NCBI GenBank assembly: GCA_015272325.1
Contig: JACYLU010000008.1
Span: forward strand, 62,001-126,000
Reading direction: 5' to 3'
From: Synechococcales cyanobacterium C42_A2020_086
Lineage (GTDB): Bacteria; Cyanobacteriota; Cyanobacteriia; Elainellales; Elainellaceae
Length of the DNA: 64,000 nucleotides
Positions 45,610 to 64,000 of the stretch are shown here, piece after piece; within the stretch, counting starts at the first letter, position 1, and every line of letters starts with the position of its first letter. The position numbers and the translations under genes are program-made. The notes below the pieces were generated by a model. The model worked only from the letters and a program-made list of their open reading frames with translations, was not told the origin of the DNA and did no database searches.

Positions 45610-46779
45610 CTATCCGCCCAGGGCCGGATGCAGGAAGAAGGCAGTTGCCAGCATGGCATAGGTCATAAGCAGCAGAATGCCCTCTAACCAGTTGCAGCGG
45701 CTGTCGGTGCGGACGGAGTTAGTCATCAAGATGGCGATGCCTAGCCCGAGAACAGTGAAATTATCAAAGTCGAGGTTCATTGGTTCTCCCATGAAGAGAC
45801 CCGCAAACACCAGAATCGGCGTCACAAACATGGCAATTTGCAGGCTCGATCCAATGGCGACCGACGATGCTAGATTCACTTTCTGCTTGGCACCGCATAT
45901 GCCGCAGGTGATGATTTCAACAGCCGCAGCAAAAATCGGGATCAGAATTACACCCGTAAATAGCTGGGTCAAGCCGGCTGTGGCAATTGCTTCACTCAAG
46001 CTACTGACCAGCACTTCCGAGACAAAGACCAGCACAATCGTTGCGCCGAGCAGCAGCCCGATATGCAGCTTTAAGCTATACATGCCGCGAGCTTCGCTGC
46101 CATAGCTTTCTGGTTCTGCATCTTCGTCTAAACCATAGAGGTGGCTATGGGTCCGCATCGAGAAAAACAGCATCAAAAGATAGCTGACCAAGAGCAGCGC
46201 CGAGGCGATATAGGAAAACTCGTTCGTAGTTTCCAGGTGCAGCACCACCGAGGTCACTTCAATGGCGGTGGGTGCCAGCAGAAACACCACGACCAGATTC
46301 AGCAAGGAGGCGTTAATGCGGGCAACGGTGCTCATATTTTCGGTCGTCGAGTGGTCGGGATGGGGACGGATGCTCAGCCCACCCAGAAACAGCGCCACGC
46401 CCAACCCCAGCAGCAGGTTGGCAATCATCGACCCCATCAAGCTGGCCTTGACGACGTCAATCAGACCGGCTTGCAGCGCCACAATCGAGACAATCATTTC
46501 GGTGGCGTTGCCGAAGGTGGCATTGAGCAACCCGCCAAAGGTGGGACCGATATGGGTGGAGATGGCTTCAGTGAAATTGGCGATCCAGGCAGCCAGAGGC
46601 ACAATGGCCATCCCGGCCATCATGAATACCAACACCGGATGGGCATTGAGGTGATGCAGAATCAGACATATGGGAACAAATACCAGCAGCCGTAAGAGAA
46701 TGGCGTCCTTGCGGGACATAAATCGGGGGGACGACGTGGCATTGCCTTTAGCATCGAGGCGAGACTTAGTGAGTGACAT
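45610..46779 (-). CDS. Ca2+/H+ exchanger of the Cax type
   Basis: The 389-aa protein has about eleven membrane segments in the CaCA architecture. The first repeat motif is present: FGNATEMIVSIVAL. The second repeat reads FAAAVEIITCGICGAK, where the usual GNAAEH is reduced to AAAVEI, with the Glu kept but Asn and His lost. IAVGSSLQIA-like VAIGSSLQIAMFVTPILV follows. An acidic loop (GLDEDAEPESYGSEARG) sits in the middle. It probably exchanges Ca2+ for H+ across the plasma membrane; the altered motif might change ion choice. Neighbours are a Ca2+ ATPase and stress proteins. Confidence 0.85.
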   Translation of the reverse strand: MSLTKSRLDAKGNATSSPRFMSRKDAILLRLLVFVPICLILHHLNAHPVLVFMMAGMAIVPLAAWIANFTEAISTHIGPTFGGLLNATFGNATEMIVSIVALQAGLIDVVKASLMGSMIANLLLGLGVALFLGGLSIRPHPDHSTTENMSTVARINASLLNLVVVFLLAPTAIEVTSVVLHLETTNEFSYIASALLLVSYLLMLFFSMRTHSHLYGLDEDAEPESYGSEARGMYSLKLHIGLLLGATIVLVFVSEVLVSSLSEAIATAGLTQLFTGVILIPIFAAAVEIITCGICGAKQKVNLASSVAIGSSLQIAMFVTPILVFAGLFMGEPMNLDFDNFTVLGLGIAILMTNSVRTDSRCNWLEGILLLMTYAMLATAFFLHPALGG

Positions 46780-47193: not shown

Positions 47194-47697
47194 TTAGGCT
47201 GGGGAAGAGGCAACCTGAGGTTTTTGCTGTGTCTTGGGCTGCGAGTGGACGGGTCCCTGCACCACCATCACAGAACAGGGGGCATAGTGCGACACATAAT
47301 TGCTGACGCTGCCCATCAGCAGTTCGCTCATGCCTGACAATCCCCGTCGTCCCATCATAATCAGGTCAGCTCCCCAGACACGGGCTATGTCGCAAATGAC
47401 GTGGCTAGGTCGGCCGAGGGTTTGGGTATAGTCCGTAGGTACCCCTGCTTGAATGGCATCTGCTGAGAGCGAGCGCAACAGCTCTAAGCCAGGGCGCTCA
47501 AATTCCTCCCAGCGTTTGCGGTTCTCAGGGGTGTTGAGCAAATTGAAGAAAGTAGGGCTGTCTTCTTCGTCGACGGCCAGCACATGCAGCAGTTTCAGGC
47601 TAGCGCCAGTGGCTTTGGCGAGATCGACGGCTTCTAAGAAAACATGCCGCCCAATGGCATCTCCGCGATGAATGGGAACGAGAATTTTCTGAATCAT
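47194..47697 (-). CDS. Universal stress protein (UspA family)
   Basis: A typical Usp of 167 aa: MIQKILVPIHRGDAIGR at the N-terminus, ASLKLLHVLAVDEED, and the nucleotide-binding pattern GRRGLSGMSELLMGSVS before a final strand CSVMVVQG. ATP-binding Usps buffer stress responses. The longer frame starts at 47808, but ATG 47697 with GGAGAC upstream is the correct family start. A second Usp gene lies upstream on the same strand after about 120 bp, so they are probably one transcript. Confidence 0.85.
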   Translation of the reverse strand: MIQKILVPIHRGDAIGRHVFLEAVDLAKATGASLKLLHVLAVDEEDSPTFFNLLNTPENRKRWEEFERPGLELLRSLSADAIQAGVPTDYTQTLGRPSHVICDIARVWGADLIMMGRRGLSGMSELLMGSVSNYVSHYAPCSVMVVQGPVHSQPKTQQKPQVASSPA

Positions 47698-47817
47698 AGT
47701 TGTCTCCAAGATAAGAAGAAATAAGGGATACAAATGGGTGGTGAATTTTAATGAATCGGGGTTGCTAGTCTTAGGTTGTGAGAGTGGGCGTTCTACACCC
47801 TTACCCATAGCAAACGT

Positions 47818-48252
47818 CTAACTGTGAACCGTTAAAACCGAACAGGGAGCATAATGCATCACATAGTTGCTGACACTGCCGCGAATGAACTTCTGGATAC
47901 CCGATAACTCGCGCTGACCGATCACAATCAAATCGGCACCCCAAGTCTGAGCAAGTCTGCAAATAGTAGCAGGAGCGGCACCTGGAGTTTGCACATATTC
48001 TGCAATGACGCCTGCCTGACTTGCTGCTGCCTGTCGAACCTGTAATCGAGTCATGCCAGTGCTCTGATAGGTTTGCCATTGCTCTAGGTGTGTGTCTAGC
48101 GTGTGAGGCTGGGGGTAGCCAATTTCCGCGTCGGACAGAACATGCAGCAGCATCAAGCAAGCTTGGGTGGCTTGAGCGAGGGAAAGGGCTTCCCCAAATA
48201 CGGTTTCGCTCAAGTCCGAATTGTCTAACGCGACCAAGATGCGATGGAACAT
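47818..48252 (-). CDS. Universal stress protein (UspA family)
   Basis: The second Usp starts at ATG 48252 (MFHRILVALDNSDLSETVFG). The ATP-binding loop reads GQRELSGIQKFIRGSVSNYV and the last strand CSVLTVHS. It shares the VSNYVxHYAPCSV core with its neighbour, so the pair are paralogues. The longer frame to 48357 has an unlikely leader. It is downstream of the P-type ATPase with the HTH tail, on the same strand, 140 bp apart. Confidence 0.85.
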   Translation of the reverse strand: MFHRILVALDNSDLSETVFGEALSLAQATQACLMLLHVLSDAEIGYPQPHTLDTHLEQWQTYQSTGMTRLQVRQAAASQAGVIAEYVQTPGAAPATICRLAQTWGADLIVIGQRELSGIQKFIRGSVSNYVMHYAPCSVLTVHS

Positions 48253-48391
48253 AGAACGAGTTTGAAGGGTGAATGGTCTGAACCGATAGCACCGGAGCAA
48301 CGGGATCCGCAGGAACTGTAGGGCAGTGTCGTCAACCTTATGCAGATCTGAGTCCACCTGCCCTACAGAGAGCTGGGAACTAGATCGCCCG

Positions 48392-51271
48392 CTAGCGCAG
48401 GCTCATTGCCCGTGTTGCCTCTGTTGCTACCTCTGCGTCTGTAGCCACGGGGTCTGTCGTTACGGGCAGAGCATAGAAGTATTTCTCGTCTGGATCAAAC
48501 GACCAAGCTACACCCTCGGGGTCTCGACCCATGCTCCACTCGGTAAATGTGGGTTTCGAGCGATAGCGAGTTAGCAGCTGGCTCGACAGTCCTAGCCGTT
48601 TAGCTAGCTCGCGCTGAGTCAAGGGCTTGGTATCAGTCGAGAATTGCCCCAGCCGTCCGGAGGGCAGATGCAGATCAACGTCCGACTCGTCAGTGCTGTG
48701 GCAGTGTTCAAGGTTAGGAACAGCGTTGTGATCCGGAGCATTATCTTGACTGATCACTCCATTGACTGTTCCATTAACTGTTCCATTGACCGCTGCGTTT
48801 GCTGATTTCTGCATCAATCCATTTGCTGCTCCGTTGGCAGAGCCGTTATGCGAGCTAGTCCTGCTATCGTCGTTCAAAAGAACTGCTTCTTGAACTTCGG
48901 CTTGCAACTCTGGGGAAACAACGATGGTTTCAGCGACGACGTCAATGGACGTAGTAGCCGGCTGAATATGGCTCTGGGTATGACCCTGGATGTGACCTTG
49001 AGCATGCTCCTGCAAGCGCTTCTCTTCTTCTGCGAGTTCGGCAGCAGTGAGGCGGTGTCCCAAGGGAGCGACATCACCGGGGCCCATCAGCGGCCGCAAT
49101 CCGTTGAGTTCTGCTAGGATGGCTGTACCGTTGTTGATTACGACTGCCAGAATTGGGTCGAGGGCGAAGAAAATACCCGACAGCAGCGCGCCTAAGTTGG
49201 GAACTGCCACAATCGCCGTATTCTGCCAGATGATGTCCATGGCTTGCCGAGCGCACTTGATGGCCATAATCAGCCCGCGCAAATCGTCTTCCATTAGCAC
49301 CACGTCGGCGGTTTCTCGGGCGATGTCGGTTGCTCCGGCAAAGGAGATCGAGACATCGGCATAGGCAAGGGCAGCAGAGTCGTTGATGCCGTCTCCGCAG
49401 AAGGCAACGGTGCGGCCGCTATCGTGCAGGGACTTCACCACCTCGACTTTCCTCTCGGGAAACGCTTCAGCGGTGACATGATTTGGGGAAATGCCGAGGT
49501 TATTGGCAATCGAGTGGGCAACGCGGGTGACGTCTCCGGTGAGCATGTGGACCGTGATACCCATGCGCTTCAGTTCGCGGATCACGTCTTTGCTTTCGGG
49601 ACGCGGCGGATCGCTGTAGCGGATGACGCCGAGCAGGGTGCCGTTGGCGGCCACAAACACCAGCGATTGCCCACCAGACTTGGCATCAGGATAGCGCAGG
49701 TCGTAGGCGTCGAGGTCCACGTTTTCCTGTTTCATGAAGCGGGGGCTGCCGACGATGATCTGCATGCCGTCGATCGTAGCGGCTGCGCCGAGACCGACTT
49801 TGTACTCCCACTCGTCGCACTCCTTGAGCGCCACGTTTTGATCTTTGGCATGGTGAACAATCGCTTCGGCAATCGGATGGGTTAGCCCCTTCTCGGCACT
49901 TGCTGCATAGCAGAGAATCTCTTCTTTGCTGAAGCGGTCATCCATAACATCAATGTCATTGACACCCGCATGACCGATGGTAAGCGTGCCGGTTTTGTCA
50001 CACACCACTGTATCAATTTTGGCGAGAATCTCAATTGCTCGACCGCTGCGGATCAAGACACCATTGCGAGCAGCATAGGTGAGAACCGAGAGAATCGTCG
50101 TGGGAACGGAAACGCGAATGCCCGTGCCAAAGTCAAGGGTCAGTAGAGCGATAGCACGGCTAAGGTTGCCCGAGACGATGCCGACGCCCGTACCAATCAG
50201 CAGCGTGGGAACAACCATCTGGTTTGCGACCATCGCCGCATAGTTTTCCACCCGCGTATCGTGCACCGGAGCTGCCTGCATCAAATTCACGATTACCCCA
50301 GCTCGGGTGTTATTACCCACGCGCTCTGCCAAAATTGTCAGGGTGCCATCCACTAGCAGCGTTGAAGCAAAGACCTCATCGCCCTTGCTGCGCGTCACCG
50401 GAACCGATTCGCCGGTGAGTTTGCACTGGTCAATGATGCCGGTGCCGTCTAGAACCACGCCGTCTACGGGAATCTGGTCACCGGGATACACCACCACATG
50501 ATCGCCAACAATTACATCTTGGGTAGGAATCTCAACGATTTGCCCGTCGCGAATTACAAAGGCGGTTTTGCTGAGGCAGTCGAGCAGATCGAGCGATGCT
50601 CGTTCGCTGCCGCGTGCCGTCATATCGCGGATAGCTTCTCCACCTTCCACCAAGCCCAACATAAAGGACGGCGCGAAGAAATGCCCGGTGACCGTGTGTA
50701 GGGAAATCGCCAAACCATCGAGGAAGTCAATGGTGAGTTGTCGGTCTTTCTGAATCGCCTCCCAAGCGCGTTTAAATACGGGAATTGCGCCAATAAACAC
50801 GACGCCGCCAATGAGAACCGGCGGAATAGGCAGACCTGCCAGCGACCCCAGGCTCAGGACTAATCCTGCCACCGGGAAGCCGAGCCGCTCTACAAAATCG
50901 ACTTCGTTGTTTGCTTTCTCAGCTTCTCCAGTCCAGCCGGCGGGAACTTCGATCGATGCGGCTTGTTGAATCGCTGTGAACAACTTTTCTTGCACCATGG
51001 CAATGGCGGTAGCCGTTGGTTGATGCACATAGTTGACAATTAGCGAACTGGCGGCAGGATTTAGCTGCACTTCAGTGACAAAATCGAGTGTTCCGACTAA
51101 GTATTTGAGTTGCAGCGCGTAGTCTTCATCCCGGGCAAGCTGAGGAATGCGAATCCGGAAGCGTCCCGGAACCCAATGAACCACCTGGTAATGAATATGC
51201 TCAGTGTGGCTGATAGAATGGGTTTCAACAACTTTGGTGATGAGGGGGACAACAGCACTGGTAACAGACAT
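48392..51271 (-). CDS. CPx-less P-type ATPase with HMA_2 N-terminus, His-rich linker and HTH-like tail
   Basis: The N-terminus (26-100) is an HMA_2/CoBaHMA-like domain: YQVVHWVPGRFRIRIPQLAR and EVQLNPAASSLIVNY. The P1B-type core follows, with TGES (286-289), DKTGTLT with Asp425, HP (465-466) and GDGIND (626-631). TM4 reads LDFGTGIRVSVPTT, where copper/zinc pumps have CPC or SPC, so the metal is not predictable. Residues 745-770 hold a His-rich helix with His at 756, 760, 764 and 768. A low-complexity Asn/Gly linker is followed by a helix-turn-helix-like module (883-930, LTQRELAKRLGLSSQLLTRY). ATG at 51271 is used. Confidence 0.88.
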   Translation of the reverse strand: MSVTSAVVPLITKVVETHSISHTEHIHYQVVHWVPGRFRIRIPQLARDEDYALQLKYLVGTLDFVTEVQLNPAASSLIVNYVHQPTATAIAMVQEKLFTAIQQAASIEVPAGWTGEAEKANNEVDFVERLGFPVAGLVLSLGSLAGLPIPPVLIGGVVFIGAIPVFKRAWEAIQKDRQLTIDFLDGLAISLHTVTGHFFAPSFMLGLVEGGEAIRDMTARGSERASLDLLDCLSKTAFVIRDGQIVEIPTQDVIVGDHVVVYPGDQIPVDGVVLDGTGIIDQCKLTGESVPVTRSKGDEVFASTLLVDGTLTILAERVGNNTRAGVIVNLMQAAPVHDTRVENYAAMVANQMVVPTLLIGTGVGIVSGNLSRAIALLTLDFGTGIRVSVPTTILSVLTYAARNGVLIRSGRAIEILAKIDTVVCDKTGTLTIGHAGVNDIDVMDDRFSKEEILCYAASAEKGLTHPIAEAIVHHAKDQNVALKECDEWEYKVGLGAAATIDGMQIIVGSPRFMKQENVDLDAYDLRYPDAKSGGQSLVFVAANGTLLGVIRYSDPPRPESKDVIRELKRMGITVHMLTGDVTRVAHSIANNLGISPNHVTAEAFPERKVEVVKSLHDSGRTVAFCGDGINDSAALAYADVSISFAGATDIARETADVVLMEDDLRGLIMAIKCARQAMDIIWQNTAIVAVPNLGALLSGIFFALDPILAVVINNGTAILAELNGLRPLMGPGDVAPLGHRLTAAELAEEEKRLQEHAQGHIQGHTQSHIQPATTSIDVVAETIVVSPELQAEVQEAVLLNDDSRTSSHNGSANGAANGLMQKSANAAVNGTVNGTVNGVISQDNAPDHNAVPNLEHCHSTDESDVDLHLPSGRLGQFSTDTKPLTQRELAKRLGLSSQLLTRYRSKPTFTEWSMGRDPEGVAWSFDPDEKYFYALPVTTDPVATDAEVATEATRAMSLR

Positions 51272-52323: not shown

Positions 52324-52527
52324 CTAGGAGAATTGTCGCATCAGCGTCAAAAAGTTTAAGTTGATATAGTCTTCGACTTCCCCGGCTGTGAAGTGATAGC
52401 CATACTCGGCTCCGACCTGTACCGCCAAAGCAACAAACGTGGCGCGATCGGAAGCTTGACGAAATCGTTCCTGCAACGATGGATTTTCGATCACAAGCTG
52501 GTGAAACTTTCTGACTTGCTTTGACAC
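52324..52527 (-). CDS. Nif11-family small protein
   Basis: The 67-aa protein (from the second GTG at 52527) has the Nif11 pattern: VRKFHQLVIENPSLQERFR, then DRATFVALAVQVGAEYGYHFTAGEVEDYI. Nif11 domains are known in N-fixation gene clusters and as leaders of ribosomal peptide natural products. No core peptide with a GG cleavage site is seen, so it is probably the non-leader type. The start is GTG at 52527, chosen because GAGGA is five bases upstream; the frame can start at 52539. Confidence 0.7.
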   Translation of the reverse strand: MSKQVRKFHQLVIENPSLQERFRQASDRATFVALAVQVGAEYGYHFTAGEVEDYINLNFLTLMRQFS

Positions 52528-52867
52528 AGTAGTCCTCACTTGCTGCTAGAGACGATACAGCTCCTACCCAGTTTTTCTATCCAAATCGCTACCCAGGATT
52601 CTGAAATTACCACTGTGAATGGTTGCTCCTGTGAGTGGTTGCTCCAAGTCAATTTCTCATCAATTTCTCAGATGATAACGGGAACAACGCTGCTTCATCA
52701 AAGTACGAATCGTGGAGCATGTTGCAACCTTTCGCCTCCTAAATTCCCTAGAATTAGGGAACGTTGAGAGGCTTGATTGTTCCAGAACGGGGGATAGAAG
52801 GCACTCTATGCTGCCATTGAGCGATCAAGAACAGTCGGGAAGGCGTTAAGACTAAACTTATCACACC
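52528..52867. other. Intergenic region with several tandem repeats
   Basis: A 16-bp repeat (TGTGAATGGTTGCTCC, then TGTGAGTGGTTGCTCC, 52614-52645) and an 11-bp pair (CAATTTCTCAT, CAATTTCTCAG, 52650-52671) occur upstream of the Nif11 gene. No further gene. Confidence 0.6.
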
Positions 52868-54382
52868 TTAAAACACATCGGTACAAACCACTCGGAAACT
52901 AATGCCGCTGCCACTGTGGTCCATCTGCTCCCAATGGCGCTGCGCGGAGCGGCAAAGGCTAGGCAGGCAGTACCAGGATCCGCCCCGCAACACCCGGCGA
53001 TTGTCGCTGTTTTCGGCGGTCCAAATGCTGCCATCGCTAGGAGCTTGATCGTAATCGTCGTGCCAAGGGTCGGCGCACCATTCCCAGACATTGCCGTGGA
53101 TATCGTAGAGACCAAAGGCGTTCGCTACCTGGAAGCTGCCGATCGGCGTGGTGTGCTGACGGTAGAGTCCTTCAGGGCCTTCGCCGTAAATGTCATTGGC
53201 ATCGTAGTTCGCCAGTTCAGCGGTGAGGGTATCGCCAAAATGAAACGGAGTCGAGGTGCCGCCGCGAGCTGCATATTCCCATTCTGCTTCGCTGGGCAGC
53301 CGATAGATGCGATTGGTCGCGCGGGTCAGTCGGGCGCAAAATTCTACTGCGTCTAGCCAGGAAACGCGCTCAACCGGGCAATCGGCTCCCTTGAATTGCG
53401 ACGGGTCAGGATTGAGCAGCCGCTCGATCGGCTCTAGCTGCGCCACGGCCTGCCAGAAGGCTTGGGTAATCGGACCTTGGCTGATGGCAAAACTGGGCAC
53501 AGTCACGAGATGGCGTGGGTCTTCGTGGGTTTCGCGTCCGGCTTCGGTGGCAGGTGAACCCATCCAGAATTGTCCATCTGGTATCTGAATCAGGGTCAAA
53601 ACGGCTCCATTTATCCGTTCCTGAATGCCATACGCCTGTTTTTCCACTGTGCTTTGTGGCTGCCCGTAGCGATCGACAGTGACAACGCGAAAGCTCAGCA
53701 ACACTGATGCGGTATTCAGGGGAGCAGCCGGAGAGGCAGGCGGCTTGAGTTCAGATGGCTTGAGTTCAGATGGCTTGAGTTCAGAGCGGTTTACTTCAAA
53801 CGACTCAGGTTCTCGCGGCATCGCAGCGGAGACAGCCGCAGCCGAGACAGGCACTATGTCTGAATTATCTGCACCTGCGAGCGGTGGAGCAGCAGTGGCA
53901 GCGGAGATGAGGTCATTCACCCGAGCTTGCAGTTGGGCGATCGCCGCTTCTTGCGCCTGCAGCATCTGGGCAAGCTGCTCGCGGTCCTGATTGGACTGAT
54001 CGAGCCGGCCTCGCCAGTAAAGAATTTCCTGCTGGGCCTGCTGCAACTGTTCCTGTTCGCGGGTGCGAGTAGCGTTCTGTGCCTGCAATGCGGCATCGAG
54101 TCGGTTTTGCTCCTGCTGCGCCTGTTCAAGCTGCATCTGGAGCTGTCGCACTTGCTCGTCATATTCTTTGAGCTGCATCTGGAGCTGCCGAATGTGATCC
54201 TGCTGCGGTTTCAGCTTCAGCCACAGCGACTTAGCCCATTGCAGACGGTTCTTCTCTTTCTCCGCCACCTCGGGAATCAGCCCAATCATCAGCGAATAGG
54301 ACTCCACATCCCAGCCGCAAACTGGGCAATACCGAGTGTTACCGCCGCTGTAGCGAGTTTGGCAAACCGGACATCGCGCCAT
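52868..54382 (-). CDS. Formylglycine-generating-enzyme-like protein with zinc ribbon and coiled coil
   Basis: The N-terminus is a zinc ribbon (Cys4, Cys7, Cys19, Cys22). A coiled coil rich in Gln and Glu follows (about 60-155), then a low-complexity linker with a triple SELKP repeat (200-214), then an FGE-sulfatase domain (about 258-500). In that domain, GGSWYCLPSLCRSAQR keeps Cys472 and Cys477 in a CX4C spacing, as in the catalytic pair of formylglycine-generating enzymes. It may modify a cysteine in a partner or act as a scaffold. It lies 36 bp downstream of the CPx-less P-type ATPase on the same strand, so one transcript is likely. Confidence 0.82.
   Translation of the reverse strand: MARCPVCQTRYSGGNTRYCPVCGWDVESYSLMIGLIPEVAEKEKNRLQWAKSLWLKLKPQQDHIRQLQMQLKEYDEQVRQLQMQLEQAQQEQNRLDAALQAQNATRTREQEQLQQAQQEILYWRGRLDQSNQDREQLAQMLQAQEAAIAQLQARVNDLISAATAAPPLAGADNSDIVPVSAAAVSAAMPREPESFEVNRSELKPSELKPSELKPPASPAAPLNTASVLLSFRVVTVDRYGQPQSTVEKQAYGIQERINGAVLTLIQIPDGQFWMGSPATEAGRETHEDPRHLVTVPSFAISQGPITQAFWQAVAQLEPIERLLNPDPSQFKGADCPVERVSWLDAVEFCARLTRATNRIYRLPSEAEWEYAARGGTSTPFHFGDTLTAELANYDANDIYGEGPEGLYRQHTTPIGSFQVANAFGLYDIHGNVWEWCADPWHDDYDQAPSDGSIWTAENSDNRRVLRGGSWYCLPSLCRSAQRHWEQMDHSGSGISFRVVCTDVF
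53742..53785. repeat. 15-bp in-frame triple repeat in the FGE-like gene
   Basis: GGCTTGAGTTCAGAT occurs twice, followed by a 14-base third copy. On the gene strand it encodes SELKP three times. Confidence 0.9.
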
Positions 54383-54418: not shown

Positions 54419-56668
54419 TTAAGCCGGACTGAATACAGGTGTCGCAGCAGAGGCAGCTTCAGGTGGGGTGAGGGCAGCGTCCATCTGTTCGATCCACTGG
54501 GCGATCGGGTCGCTATCCGGATCAAGAAACGGACGGAGACTGTTGAGTTCGGCGATCAGGGCAGCTCCGTTGCTGATAATCACACTCAGCACTGGGTCAA
54601 GGGCAAACAAAATGCCGGCAGCTACCACGCCAATGTTGGGAATGGCAATGATCGCAGTATTTTGATAAACGATACTCATCGCTCGTTTGGCAATCGCAAT
54701 CGCATGCACAATACCGCGCAGATCATCATCGAGCAAGACAACTTCTGCGGTTTCCCGCGCCATGTCGATGCCGCTAGCAAAGGAGAGCGACACATCGGCA
54801 TGGGCCAGGGCTACCGCGTCGTTAATGCCTTCGCCAATAAAGGCCACCGTTCGCCCCTGGTCCCGCAGCGCTTTAACCATCTCCACTTTGCGGTCGGGAA
54901 AGGCTTCAGCATAGACATGGTCTCGCTCGATGCCGAGCTGCCCGGCTACCCGTTCTGCCACGCGCTGGTTGTCTCCGGTCAGCATATAGGTCTCAATCGA
55001 TTGCGCATGCAGCTTGGCGATGAGTTCTCGGCTTTCGGGTCGCGGCGGGTCTGTGTAGAGAATGACGCCCAGCAGTTTGCCGTCCCGGGCCACATAGACC
55101 ACTGATTGCGAGTCGGTTTTCAGATCGGGATAGCGGACATGGATTGGGCTGGTATCAATGTTTTCTTGTTGCAGCAGCCGCTCGCTGCCGACTAGCACCC
55201 GCTGCCCGTCGATCTGAGCAATAACGCCAAAGCCGATCCGGTAGTCCCAGGTGTCGCAGGGATAGGGTGTCAGTCGCCGAGCCTCGGCCGCCCGCAGAAT
55301 TGCTGCCGCCACCGGATGGGTGTTGTTCAGCTCGGTAGAGGCCGCTACCCGCAGCACCTCTGCTTGGGAAATCCGCCGACTCACAGTCTTGACGCCCACA
55401 ACTTCGGCATTGCCCTGGGTAAGGGTGCCAGTTTTATCAAACACGACTGTATCGACCTGCGACAGCATTTCTAGCGCTCGGCCACTGCGGATATAAATGC
55501 CGTGCCGTGCGGCATAGGTCAACGCTGCCAGCACCGTCGAAGGCACCGCAATTCGCATGCCGTAGCCAAAATCGAGGTGTAGCGGCGCAATTGCTCGCGA
55601 GAAGTCGCGGGTCAGCACTAGCAGCAAGCCACTCAGCAGCAGGGTCGGCAGAATCGCAGCGTTGGCAATGTGCGAGGCGTAGTCCTGCACGCGGGTATCG
55701 TAGACCGGGGCCGAACGTAGCAGCTCCACCGTCAAGCCGACGCGGGTATCTTTGCCAATGCGTTTCGTGAGAATGCAGAGCTTGCCTTCCAGCACCTGCG
55801 TTGAGGCATGGACCACCTGCCCCTCCGAGCGGGAGACCAAGCTGGATTCGCCGGTGAGCTTATGTTCGTCGATCAGCGCTGTGCCCCGCAATACCCGCCC
55901 ACTGACCGGGATAATTTCTCCGGCAGAAACCACAACCCGATCACCGCGCTGCACCTCCTTCAGGGGAATCCGCACCTCTTGCCCGTCGCGCTCGACCCAA
56001 GCATAGCGATCGATGCCGCTCAGCAGATCAAACACTTGCCGTTCGTTGGAGCGAGCCGTTGTGTCGCGCAGGGCTTCTCCGGTTTCGATCAAGCTCACCA
56101 TCAGTGCCGGAGCCACAAAGTCGCCCTTCACGGTGTATAGCCCTAGCCAGAGCACATCCAGAAGGTCGGTATCAAACTGCTGCCTCTTTGCCATCTCGAA
56201 GACACGGCTGACAAACGGCCAGGCAGCAGCAGCCACGACACCCCCTACCAACAGCGGCGGAATCGGCAGCAACCGGCTAGCAACCCAGGCCAGCCCAAGG
56301 CTAAATACCGGCAGCCCGAGCCGCTCGATCCAGTTGATCATCGGGCGCAGTTCGGTTTTCGTCAGCACTCCCACTGGCAGCTCCGGTTCTTCGGCTTGTT
56401 GCATCACCTGCTGCAGCTGCTCAGCGAGAGTGAGGATTGGCACCTCGGGGTGGTGATAGATGATCAGGCAGCTTGCTACTGGGTTGATTCGGACGCTGGT
56501 AACGAAATCGAACGACTCTAGCAACCAGTTGAGGCGATTGGCATACGCTGCGTCAGCGGCAATCCGGGGCACTCGGATCCGCAGTCGCCCGACCGTTACA
56601 TGCACAATCTGGCACTCGACTCCCAATTCGGCTGGACGGCTATCCCTAGACACTGCTTTGGTTTCCAT
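54419..56668 (-). CDS. CPx-less P-type ATPase with HMA_2 N-terminus
   Basis: The N-terminal HMA_2/CoBaHMA-like domain (18-80) reads CQIVHVTVGRLRIRVPRIAA and SVRINPVASCLIIYH. The P1B-type core has TGES (272-275), DKTGTLT with Asp411, HP (451-452) and, in place of GDGxND, GEGIND (612-617): the first acid is Glu, confirmed by the codon GAA. TM4 reads LDFGYGMRIAVPST, so again no CPC. The length, 749 aa, is shorter than its paralogue, with no HTH tail. The metal is not predictable. ATG at 56668 is used. The FGE-like gene follows after 36 bp. Confidence 0.88.
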   Translation of the reverse strand: METKAVSRDSRPAELGVECQIVHVTVGRLRIRVPRIAADAAYANRLNWLLESFDFVTSVRINPVASCLIIYHHPEVPILTLAEQLQQVMQQAEEPELPVGVLTKTELRPMINWIERLGLPVFSLGLAWVASRLLPIPPLLVGGVVAAAAWPFVSRVFEMAKRQQFDTDLLDVLWLGLYTVKGDFVAPALMVSLIETGEALRDTTARSNERQVFDLLSGIDRYAWVERDGQEVRIPLKEVQRGDRVVVSAGEIIPVSGRVLRGTALIDEHKLTGESSLVSRSEGQVVHASTQVLEGKLCILTKRIGKDTRVGLTVELLRSAPVYDTRVQDYASHIANAAILPTLLLSGLLLVLTRDFSRAIAPLHLDFGYGMRIAVPSTVLAALTYAARHGIYIRSGRALEMLSQVDTVVFDKTGTLTQGNAEVVGVKTVSRRISQAEVLRVAASTELNNTHPVAAAILRAAEARRLTPYPCDTWDYRIGFGVIAQIDGQRVLVGSERLLQQENIDTSPIHVRYPDLKTDSQSVVYVARDGKLLGVILYTDPPRPESRELIAKLHAQSIETYMLTGDNQRVAERVAGQLGIERDHVYAEAFPDRKVEMVKALRDQGRTVAFIGEGINDAVALAHADVSLSFASGIDMARETAEVVLLDDDLRGIVHAIAIAKRAMSIVYQNTAIIAIPNIGVVAAGILFALDPVLSVIISNGAALIAELNSLRPFLDPDSDPIAQWIEQMDAALTPPEAASAATPVFSPA

Positions 56669-63105: not shown

Positions 63106-63417
63106 ATGTTTGAACTTGAAGCGTTGTTGTTAGGGCTAGAACCGATGACGGCAGCGGCTGTCGGCGTTGGTGCGTTGCTCCTAGCTCCGGTGATTGGGGC
63201 AGTTGATTCTGCTACTAACAATTCTTTGTCGGAAGGAGCAAAATCTGTTGCCAAAACTGGGTTAATCTGGGGCTTTCAAGCCTTTGAGAAAGCTCAGTCT
63301 GCGGTGGCCGAAGCCAGCGAATCCTTCCAGGATTTGGTTGCCGAAGCAAAAGCAGATATGGCGTCGTCTAAGAACGGCACCCATGAAGCTCCACCCCGCG
63401 AAGTAACGATTGGCTAG
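63106..63417 (+). CDS. DUF5132-like protein
   Basis: This 103-aa protein starts with a short hydrophilic lead, then a Gly/Ala-rich membrane segment (TAAAVGVGALLLAPVIGAV), and ends with an amphipathic helix (EKAQSAVAEASESFQDLVAEAKADM). The layout matches DUF5132 proteins, which in other bacteria are often found near HMA_2 proteins and P-type ATPases. The ATG has GGAGG eleven bases upstream. A strong terminator follows about 55 bp after the stop. Confidence 0.7.
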   Translation: MFELEALLLGLEPMTAAAVGVGALLLAPVIGAVDSATNNSLSEGAKSVAKTGLIWGFQAFEKAQSAVAEASESFQDLVAEAKADMASSKNGTHEAPPREVTIG

Positions 63418-63802: not shown

Positions 63803-64000
63803 AGCTTAAAGGCACTACCCAGATTGGTGACTCGATCTCTAAAAACTGCAAACTCTTGCGTACAGGTGGCTCATCAATGGGATCCGCCTGTTTACTTTGG
63901 GATGTTTAAGACCTTAGAAGGAAAGTAGAGAGAAAGCTTTAAACGGCGAAGAACACTTTTGCAGTGGGGTCGTAGCACCAGCTTTTACCTTCGGGATCTC

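Follow-up and report, generated by a model that had tools for sequence, protein, structure and literature searches.

Can an ion pump carry a DNA-binding domain of its own and, if so, what would such a domain do at the membrane? The question is raised by a gene in a 64,000-nucleotide stretch of DNA from Synechococcales cyanobacterium C42_A2020_086 (contig JACYLU010000008.1, positions 62,001 to 126,000), hereafter the window, in which a P-type ATPase continues far beyond its last membrane segment. A first-pass annotation of the window proposed that the pump is fused, through a histidine-rich metal-binding helix, to a module resembling a helix-turn-helix (HTH), and that the whole might be a metal-gated sensor or a tethered regulator. 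The open reading frame (ORF) that it placed at 48392-51271 is confirmed by the ORF list and by translation; it lies on the minus strand and encodes 959 residues, and frame 1 of the plus strand across the same interval is interrupted by stops. The tailed ATPase recurs in other genomes, its architecture and predicted fold are conserved, and its C-terminal module is under purifying selection. The reading that we favour, with a probability of about 0.4, is that the module is a membrane-tethered, nucleic-acid-binding winged helix-turn-helix (wHTH) that makes the pump a regulator (a transceptor) or brings the pump to the nucleoid.

The module occupies residues 884-936 (48464-48622, on the minus strand, as are all features of this gene) and begins with LTQRELAKRLGLSSQLLTRY at residue 884. 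When it was modelled alone with AlphaFold2, from 14 sequences, it gave helices at 886-893, 897-903/904 and 909-916 followed by a beta-hairpin (922-926/931-935), with 897-904 as the recognition helix. A full-length model built from 32 sequences had a mean predicted local distance difference test score (pLDDT) of 69.3 and a predicted template modelling score (pTM) of 0.56, with residues 884-936 at about 92; the pLDDT of the module was thus about 91-92 in both models, which share part of their sequence input. In these predictions the module is a compact wHTH consisting of an HTH, a third helix and a beta-hairpin wing. Structure prediction had been named in the first-pass annotation as a check on the HTH, and a winged one is what was predicted. 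The fusion of an HTH-like module to the pump is further borne out by an alignment of 85 distinct modules, drawn from the best-scoring loci rather than a random sample and including near-copies, in which L889, W912, D917, P918 and W923 are invariant (85/85) and R892 is found in 84 of 85. Counted separately, the first HTH helix and the turn with the recognition helix each carry a net positive charge in 71 of the 85 modules; for the third helix and the wing, both acidic on average, the counts are 6 and 11. The basic HTH helices are compatible with binding to DNA through the HTH face, and are no proof of it.

The module of this protein had no significant match to a described family. Pfam HTH models matched the last 102 residues only below their cut-offs (HTH_24 with E 0.00074 and a score of 19.5 against 21.9, MarR_2 with 16.6 against 27, HTH_3 with 16 against 23), no Pfam family of the MerR or excisionase type was listed for the 959-residue protein at E <= 1, and a sequence search of the PDB with the module profile gave a best E of 0.13. 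Structural matches were weak, at Foldseek E >= 0.37 in the PDB and 0.077 among viral models and at VIA Z <= 4.1, which is under the level that the tool calls meaningful. The small winged HTHs of MerR, excisionase, BldC and Zalpha recur among these weak matches and are alike in size and in the order of an HTH followed by a hairpin, but none is a significant match in structure or sequence, and an assignment to MerR or excisionase by structure was rejected because the matches were too weak.

How is the module attached to the pump? The last helix that we interpret as a membrane helix spans residues 706-724 in the full-length model, so that the tail, which had been put at about 210 residues, does exist but extends for about 235. 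Its first element is a predicted helix at residues 743-762 (48986-49045) with a LAEEEKRL stretch whose like is present in many orthologues. The four histidines reported at 756, 760, 764 and 768 (48968-49006) are there in the sequence, but only the first two fall within this helix, 764 and 768 lying in the low-confidence linker that follows; the four-residue spacing arises from a short imperfect repeat, HAQG-HIQG-HTQS-HIQ. An H-x3-H-x3-H pattern after NGLRPL, in the C-terminal part, was found in 2 of the 35 ATPases compared, this one and L075 (L numbers denote loci); in the latter the pattern belongs to an N/G/S/H repeat in the linker, outside the helix. A conserved His-rich metal-binding helix was thus rejected, since the helix is partly common to the orthologues and the histidine series is not. 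The Asn/Gly linker described in the first reading is present as an Asn/Gly/Ala-rich, predicted disordered segment of about 120 residues (760-880; 48632-48994; pLDDT < 50) that differs strongly in sequence and length between orthologues. Since two membrane helices come after the cytosolic P domain, the tail with its wHTH should lie on the cytosolic side, as judged from P-type topology.

The pump itself appears, from its motifs, to be a P1B-like P-type ATPase. It exceeds the cut-off of NCBIfam TIGR01525 (492.7 bits against 346.25), among solved structures CopA is the nearest in sequence (3j08, E 1.8e-79), and the catalytic motifs LTGES, DKTGT (the phosphorylation site), THP and GDGIND, the last corresponding to GDGxND, are all intact in the motif table. 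The core (residues 126-729, 49085-50896) contains eight helices interpreted as membrane helices by reading the secondary structure of the full-length model, without a membrane predictor. An HMA_2-like domain precedes it (residues 29-84, 51020-51187; Pfam HMA_2 E 7.3e-07, 29.7 bits, slightly below the cut-off of 30) and contains no cysteine. A CPx motif in the fourth transmembrane helix (TM4) is the hallmark of heavy-metal P1B pumps. The corresponding stretch here, DFGTGIRVSVPTT (residues 380-392, 50096-50134), contains no such motif (CPC, SPC or TPC); in the phmmer alignment FGT stands at the position of the CPC of CopA, and none of the 57 ATPase rows of the motif table has a cysteine in this stretch. 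The protein is like the P1B heavy-metal ATPases (TIGR01525; CopA, ZntA) in core fold, DKTGT, TGES and GDGIND, but differs from them in lacking both CPx and cysteines in its HMA_2-like domain and in its extended C-terminus, where about 230 further residues include a wHTH. Given the missing CPx and the cysteine-free HMA_2-like domain, a heavy-metal cargo would be an assumption, which also weakens the earlier description of the protein as metal-gated.

The module extends well beyond this pump. At E <= 0.001 it was found in 118 of 386 sampled cyanobacterial genomes and in 45 of 60 relatives, both sets including the source genome. The source genome has four copies at E <= 1e-9: the 959-residue ATPase and another intact one (L008:5811-8540), a dead paralogue (L007:9940-12102) and a 289-residue protein with a hydrophobic stretch (L009:5137-6006). 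Of its six matches at E <= 10, those at E 0.06 and 0.4, in frames with stops, were discarded as the weakest. Among 69 distinct module proteins, likewise from the best-scoring loci with near-copies included, 11 are ATPases, 51 are others with one or two transmembrane (TM) segments predicted by a simple hydropathy rule and 7 are soluble, so that 62 of 69 are either ATPases or carry a predicted TM segment and the module in this set sits mostly at the C-terminus of membrane proteins. The module ends a DprA protein (L130; Pfam DNA_processg_A E 9.8e-67) and a response-regulator receiver-domain protein (L050; Pfam 2.7e-12), and it accompanies an HMA_2 domain and a glycine-rich zipper-like C-terminal stretch in two proteins without an ATPase (L035:1021-2199 and L102:2808-3815). 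In the module proteins scanned one family reached its cut-off on the module, the general HTH family Phage_CI_repr on L057 (24 against 22 bits). By these searches the module appears to be a cyanobacterial domain for which neither Pfam nor NCBIfam has a dedicated model. Many of its carriers (L011-L034 and others) are membrane proteins of about 250 residues that are common in cyanobacteria, with N-terminal TM segments and the module at the end; their middle region looks by eye like another winged helix, and no family reached its cut-off in the two members scanned with Pfam or the one scanned with NCBIfam.

Plasmids also encode the module: 92 of 72,556 plasmid records matched it at tblastn E <= 1, likely chance matches such as one in Aminobacter included. 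In the plasmid proteins a coiled-coil-like middle part, seen by eye and through weak matches, precedes the module, and one of them matches HTH_17 at E 0.082. Among soluble carriers of the module, plasmid proteins included, some have an N-terminus that, by eye and with weak support, resembles a ribbon-helix-helix (RHH) domain. No match to phages was obtained at E <= 1, and the single match on a viral contig (L117) spans 22 residues of a protein that by eye resembles an ordinary XRE-type repressor; a phage origin was rejected on these grounds. A cold-shock-like N-terminus in L128, read by eye without support from a tool, was not used.

To what extent is the module a stable part of the ATPase? 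A scan of contigs from one genome per species with the ATPase alignment gave 43 loci, 15 of which contain a module-bearing ATPase (L068-L072, L076, L080, L081, L088, L089, L093, L096, L099, L100 and L102, the gene in L102 being split into two ORFs); L075 is a sixteenth, its sequence ending inside the module. Fischerella muscicola PCC 7414 and Chlorogloeopsis fritschii PCC 6912 are among the carriers of the tailed gene. In a tree of 57 ATPases, 20 rows including the 959-residue protein form a clade with a support of 97; this tree and the wider one below are quick trees with open forks, supported by the Shimodaira-Hasegawa-like approximate likelihood-ratio test (SH-aLRT) only. With L075 counted, 14 of the 20 members are tailed. 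Absence of the tail from close homologues, which the annotation had named as the sign of a local fusion, thus holds for six members (L073, L074, L077, L078, L079 and L087) but not for the other 14, nor for more distant tailed ATPases, and a local fusion was rejected. If the module is ancestral in this clade, about five losses would be needed. No remnant of it was detected around or behind the stop in the six tailless orthologues (best E 0.36), and in L078, compared with L100, an in-frame deletion of 210 nt removes the module and leaves the last residues in place. The L078 contig is labelled Candidatus Gracilibacteria and clusters within cyanobacteria beside Hydrococcus in the trees, and is probably mis-binned.

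In the wider tree of 69 rows, from which 8 long-branch or degenerate rows were excluded on purpose, seven tailed ATPases from a small-genome family (f19; L118-L124) form a separate clade with a support of 100. Untailed rows stand between this clade and that of the 959-residue protein, which implies either two fusions or one old fusion followed by many losses. All seven f19 ATPases read are tailed. The ratio of nonsynonymous to synonymous substitution rates (dN/dS) was 0.13-0.29 for the module in all nine pairs compared, 0.03-0.10 for the core and 0.12-0.72 for the linker, the latter two in the seven pairs for which each was computable; the pairs are not independent of each other and the substitution counts in the module are small. 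In the pair L069/L070 the linker (0.12) had a lower value than the module (0.29). These ratios indicate that the module is under constraint, looser than that on the ATPase core.

The dead paralogue provides a further view of the module. The 3' end of its gene lies at the edge of the window (63939-64000, minus strand; full gene L007:9940-12102, 720 residues). The protein no longer has the DKTGT and GDGIND motifs or the N domain, but its HMA_2 domain and wHTH are retained; a tailed dead ATPase that is 58% identical occurs in a second genus (genome G394). Since the module is retained on a dead ATPase in two genera, its job seems not to require pumping, as if the module worked without it. Altered phosphorylation sites (ARTGNLT, AKTGTLT) were also noted in the ATPase paralogues L008:3309-5552, L086:1688-3913 and L089:6630-8873, which are likely a second kind of inactive pump.

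In the mechanism that we favour, a flexible tether of about 120 residues would keep a small wHTH on the cytosolic side of the pump, and the pump would bring it to DNA, be it the conserved cluster of the pump itself or the nearby nucleoid. Depending on its occupancy or conformation, the pump could then alter binding or clustering of the module, and it would be transporter and regulator in one. We infer DNA binding and a regulatory role from the confidently predicted wHTH, the DprA and receiver-domain partners, the basic HTH helices, the many membrane proteins among the carriers, the dead tailed paralogue, the purifying selection and, with little weight, the RHH-like N-termini. It could be argued further that the ion pump is itself a transcription factor that relays its own transport state to DNA through the tethered wHTH, an arrangement that is retained in two separate ATPase lineages and has a copy in a dead paralogue. 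The pump would then exemplify an as yet unnamed domain through which cyanobacterial membrane proteins are tied to DNA. We regard this more specific proposal as unlikely. It should be emphasized that a number of observations weigh against regulation through DNA. The module has been lost repeatedly, six of the 20 clade members keeping the pump without it, and of the 51 sampled cyanobacterial genomes (of 386) with an ATPase at E <= 1e-120, at least eight have a tailed copy (G000, and all seven f19 genomes with a match), a lower bound among the matches listed, with at most two candidates scored per genome, so that further tails could be missed. Two other dead-type ATPases carry no module, namely L080:7689-9692 and L135, the latter from G423 and a more distant relative of the L007 protein than that of G394. 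A search of the 500-bp upstream regions of 11 tailed genes, a weak test for a shared operator, gave no inverted repeat or 8-mer that exceeded 30 shuffled controls. For the RHH-like N-termini, no RHH family was found by Pfam in six plasmid module proteins at E <= 1, and on L067 RHH_5 reached 16.7 bits, short of its cut-off of 26. Finally, DNA binding by the module is a candidate function: a wHTH can be used to contact proteins too, the wing is acidic on average, and the top VIA rows for the module, weak as these matches are, are proteasome and COP9 subunits.

The winged helices of those subunits, which we take to be of the protein-binding PCI type, would be the model for an alternative in which the module serves protein interaction, as an adaptor that does not bind DNA but attaches the pump to a partner or organizes a membrane complex. 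The acidic third helix and wing would suit such a role, as would the presence of the module beside HMA_2 in the glycine-zipper-like proteins without an ATPase, as if it were part of a membrane assembly. The DprA and receiver-domain partners point instead to nucleic acid or gene control, however, in most modules the HTH helices carry a net positive charge, and the VIA scores are below the meaningful level; we consider the adaptor a possible but doubtful explanation. The preponderance of ATPases and predicted TM proteins among the carriers, the plasmid proteins in which the module follows a coiled-coil-like part and the failure to find a shared operator would all be accommodated by a non-specific tether, through which membrane or plasmid proteins would be anchored to chromosome or plasmid by a module that binds DNA without sequence preference. 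A single small wHTH on a pump would, however, be a weak anchor unless it were multimeric, and we think this improbable. A cytosolic tail on a long tether could also fold back on the cytosolic domains and control transport, and terminal domains with a regulatory role are known from P-type ATPases (PMC10654040); such autoinhibition is nevertheless very improbable, as the module occurs on many proteins that are not pumps and survives on a dead one. That the module is a dispensable passenger, spread by shuffling in cyanobacteria and functionless on the pump, would explain its absence from the six clade members, once by a clean in-frame deletion, and its presence on the HMA_2-glycine-zipper protein of L102 but not on the similar one of L088. 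This is hardly credible against a dN/dS well below 1 in all nine pairs and the retention of the module in every f19 genome with an ATPase match.

Several known systems resemble the tailed ATPase in part. Our literature search, mostly of titles and the beginnings of abstracts and of partial coverage, did not retrieve a paper describing a DNA-binding tail on a P-type ATPase. If its predicted wHTH binds DNA, the pump would unite a DNA-binding domain and a membrane domain in one chain. In CadC the DNA-binding domain is N-terminal, in contrast to the wHTH described here, which is C-terminal and of another, unassigned kind. In the CadC/ToxR family of membrane-integrated one-component regulators such a domain is tied to a membrane protein and binds DNA from the membrane (PMC7888679, PMC6320335), as the tailed ATPase may do, but CadC has one membrane helix (PMC6320335) and the tailed ATPase is a multi-span pump. 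Long termini are a mark of eukaryotic P1B pumps, prokaryotic termini being shorter (PMC10654040); the tailed ATPase is a bacterial counter-case. The same text poses as an open question whether eukaryotic P1B pumps are transceptors, that is pump and sensor, and the question becomes testable in a bacterial pump whose conserved wHTH should lie in the cytosol. In the mycobacterial PacL/CtpC metal efflux platforms a small membrane protein partners a P-type ATPase, and no wHTH is mentioned in the portions of their descriptions consulted (PMC9374683, PMC13043812); DUF5132-like proteins stand beside some of the ATPases considered here, and their likeness to PacL is a guess. DUF5132 small proteins were noted next to HMA_2-type ATPases at 63106-63417 in the window (Pfam), at L008:8738-9133 (by eye) and, by phmmer, in L085, L086, L088, L089, L092, L098 and L101. 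The pump and the general idea of a membrane-bound wHTH are thus known, and what is new is their combination and the unnamed domain. The function of the module would account for a whole set of hypothetical membrane proteins in cyanobacteria.

The tailed ATPase lies in a conserved cluster, and the window features given with coordinates below are all on the minus strand. Upstream is a partner paralogue without the module (54419-56668, 749 residues) that has GEGIND for GDGIND; the same replacement is found in the second ATPase of the 10 other loci with motif data (L069, L070, L072-L074, L076, L087, L093, L096 and L099), whereas the equivalent gene L080:107-2398 has GDGIND. Between the two ATPases is a gene (52868-54382; best NCBIfam match PvdO, E 6.9e-46, below cut-off) whose product presumably resembles formylglycine-generating enzymes (FGE-like), and between that gene and the tailed ATPase is a Nif11-domain ORF of 71 residues (52324-52539, Pfam E 8.4e-08). 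Directly downstream of the tailed ATPase is a universal stress protein (Usp; 47818-48357), and beyond it are a second one (47194-47808), both above the Pfam Usp cut-off, and a Cax-type calcium/proton exchanger (45610-46779, NCBIfam TIGR00378 above cut-off). Over the 43 loci, in which some neighbours are hidden by contig ends, the FGE-like gene and second ATPase precede the matched ATPase, with or without module, in 16, Usp follows it in 12 and the Cax exchanger in 14. A nearby P2-type ATPase, whose best NCBIfam match is of the PMR1 type and under the cut-off of the model, together with the Cax exchanger suggests that calcium or another divalent cation may be the theme of the cluster. Rfam returned nothing at the gathering score in 40000-64000. 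Two further arrangements were noted among the loci. An HMA_2-like domain, below the Pfam cut-off, is fused to an EamA transporter in L008:2103-3332, and by eye also in L088:5052-6257 and L102:3749-4972. In L095 and L097, from Anaerolineae, three HMA_2-type P-type ATPases stand in tandem in the same direction, the middle one with DKTATLT in place of DKTGTLT.

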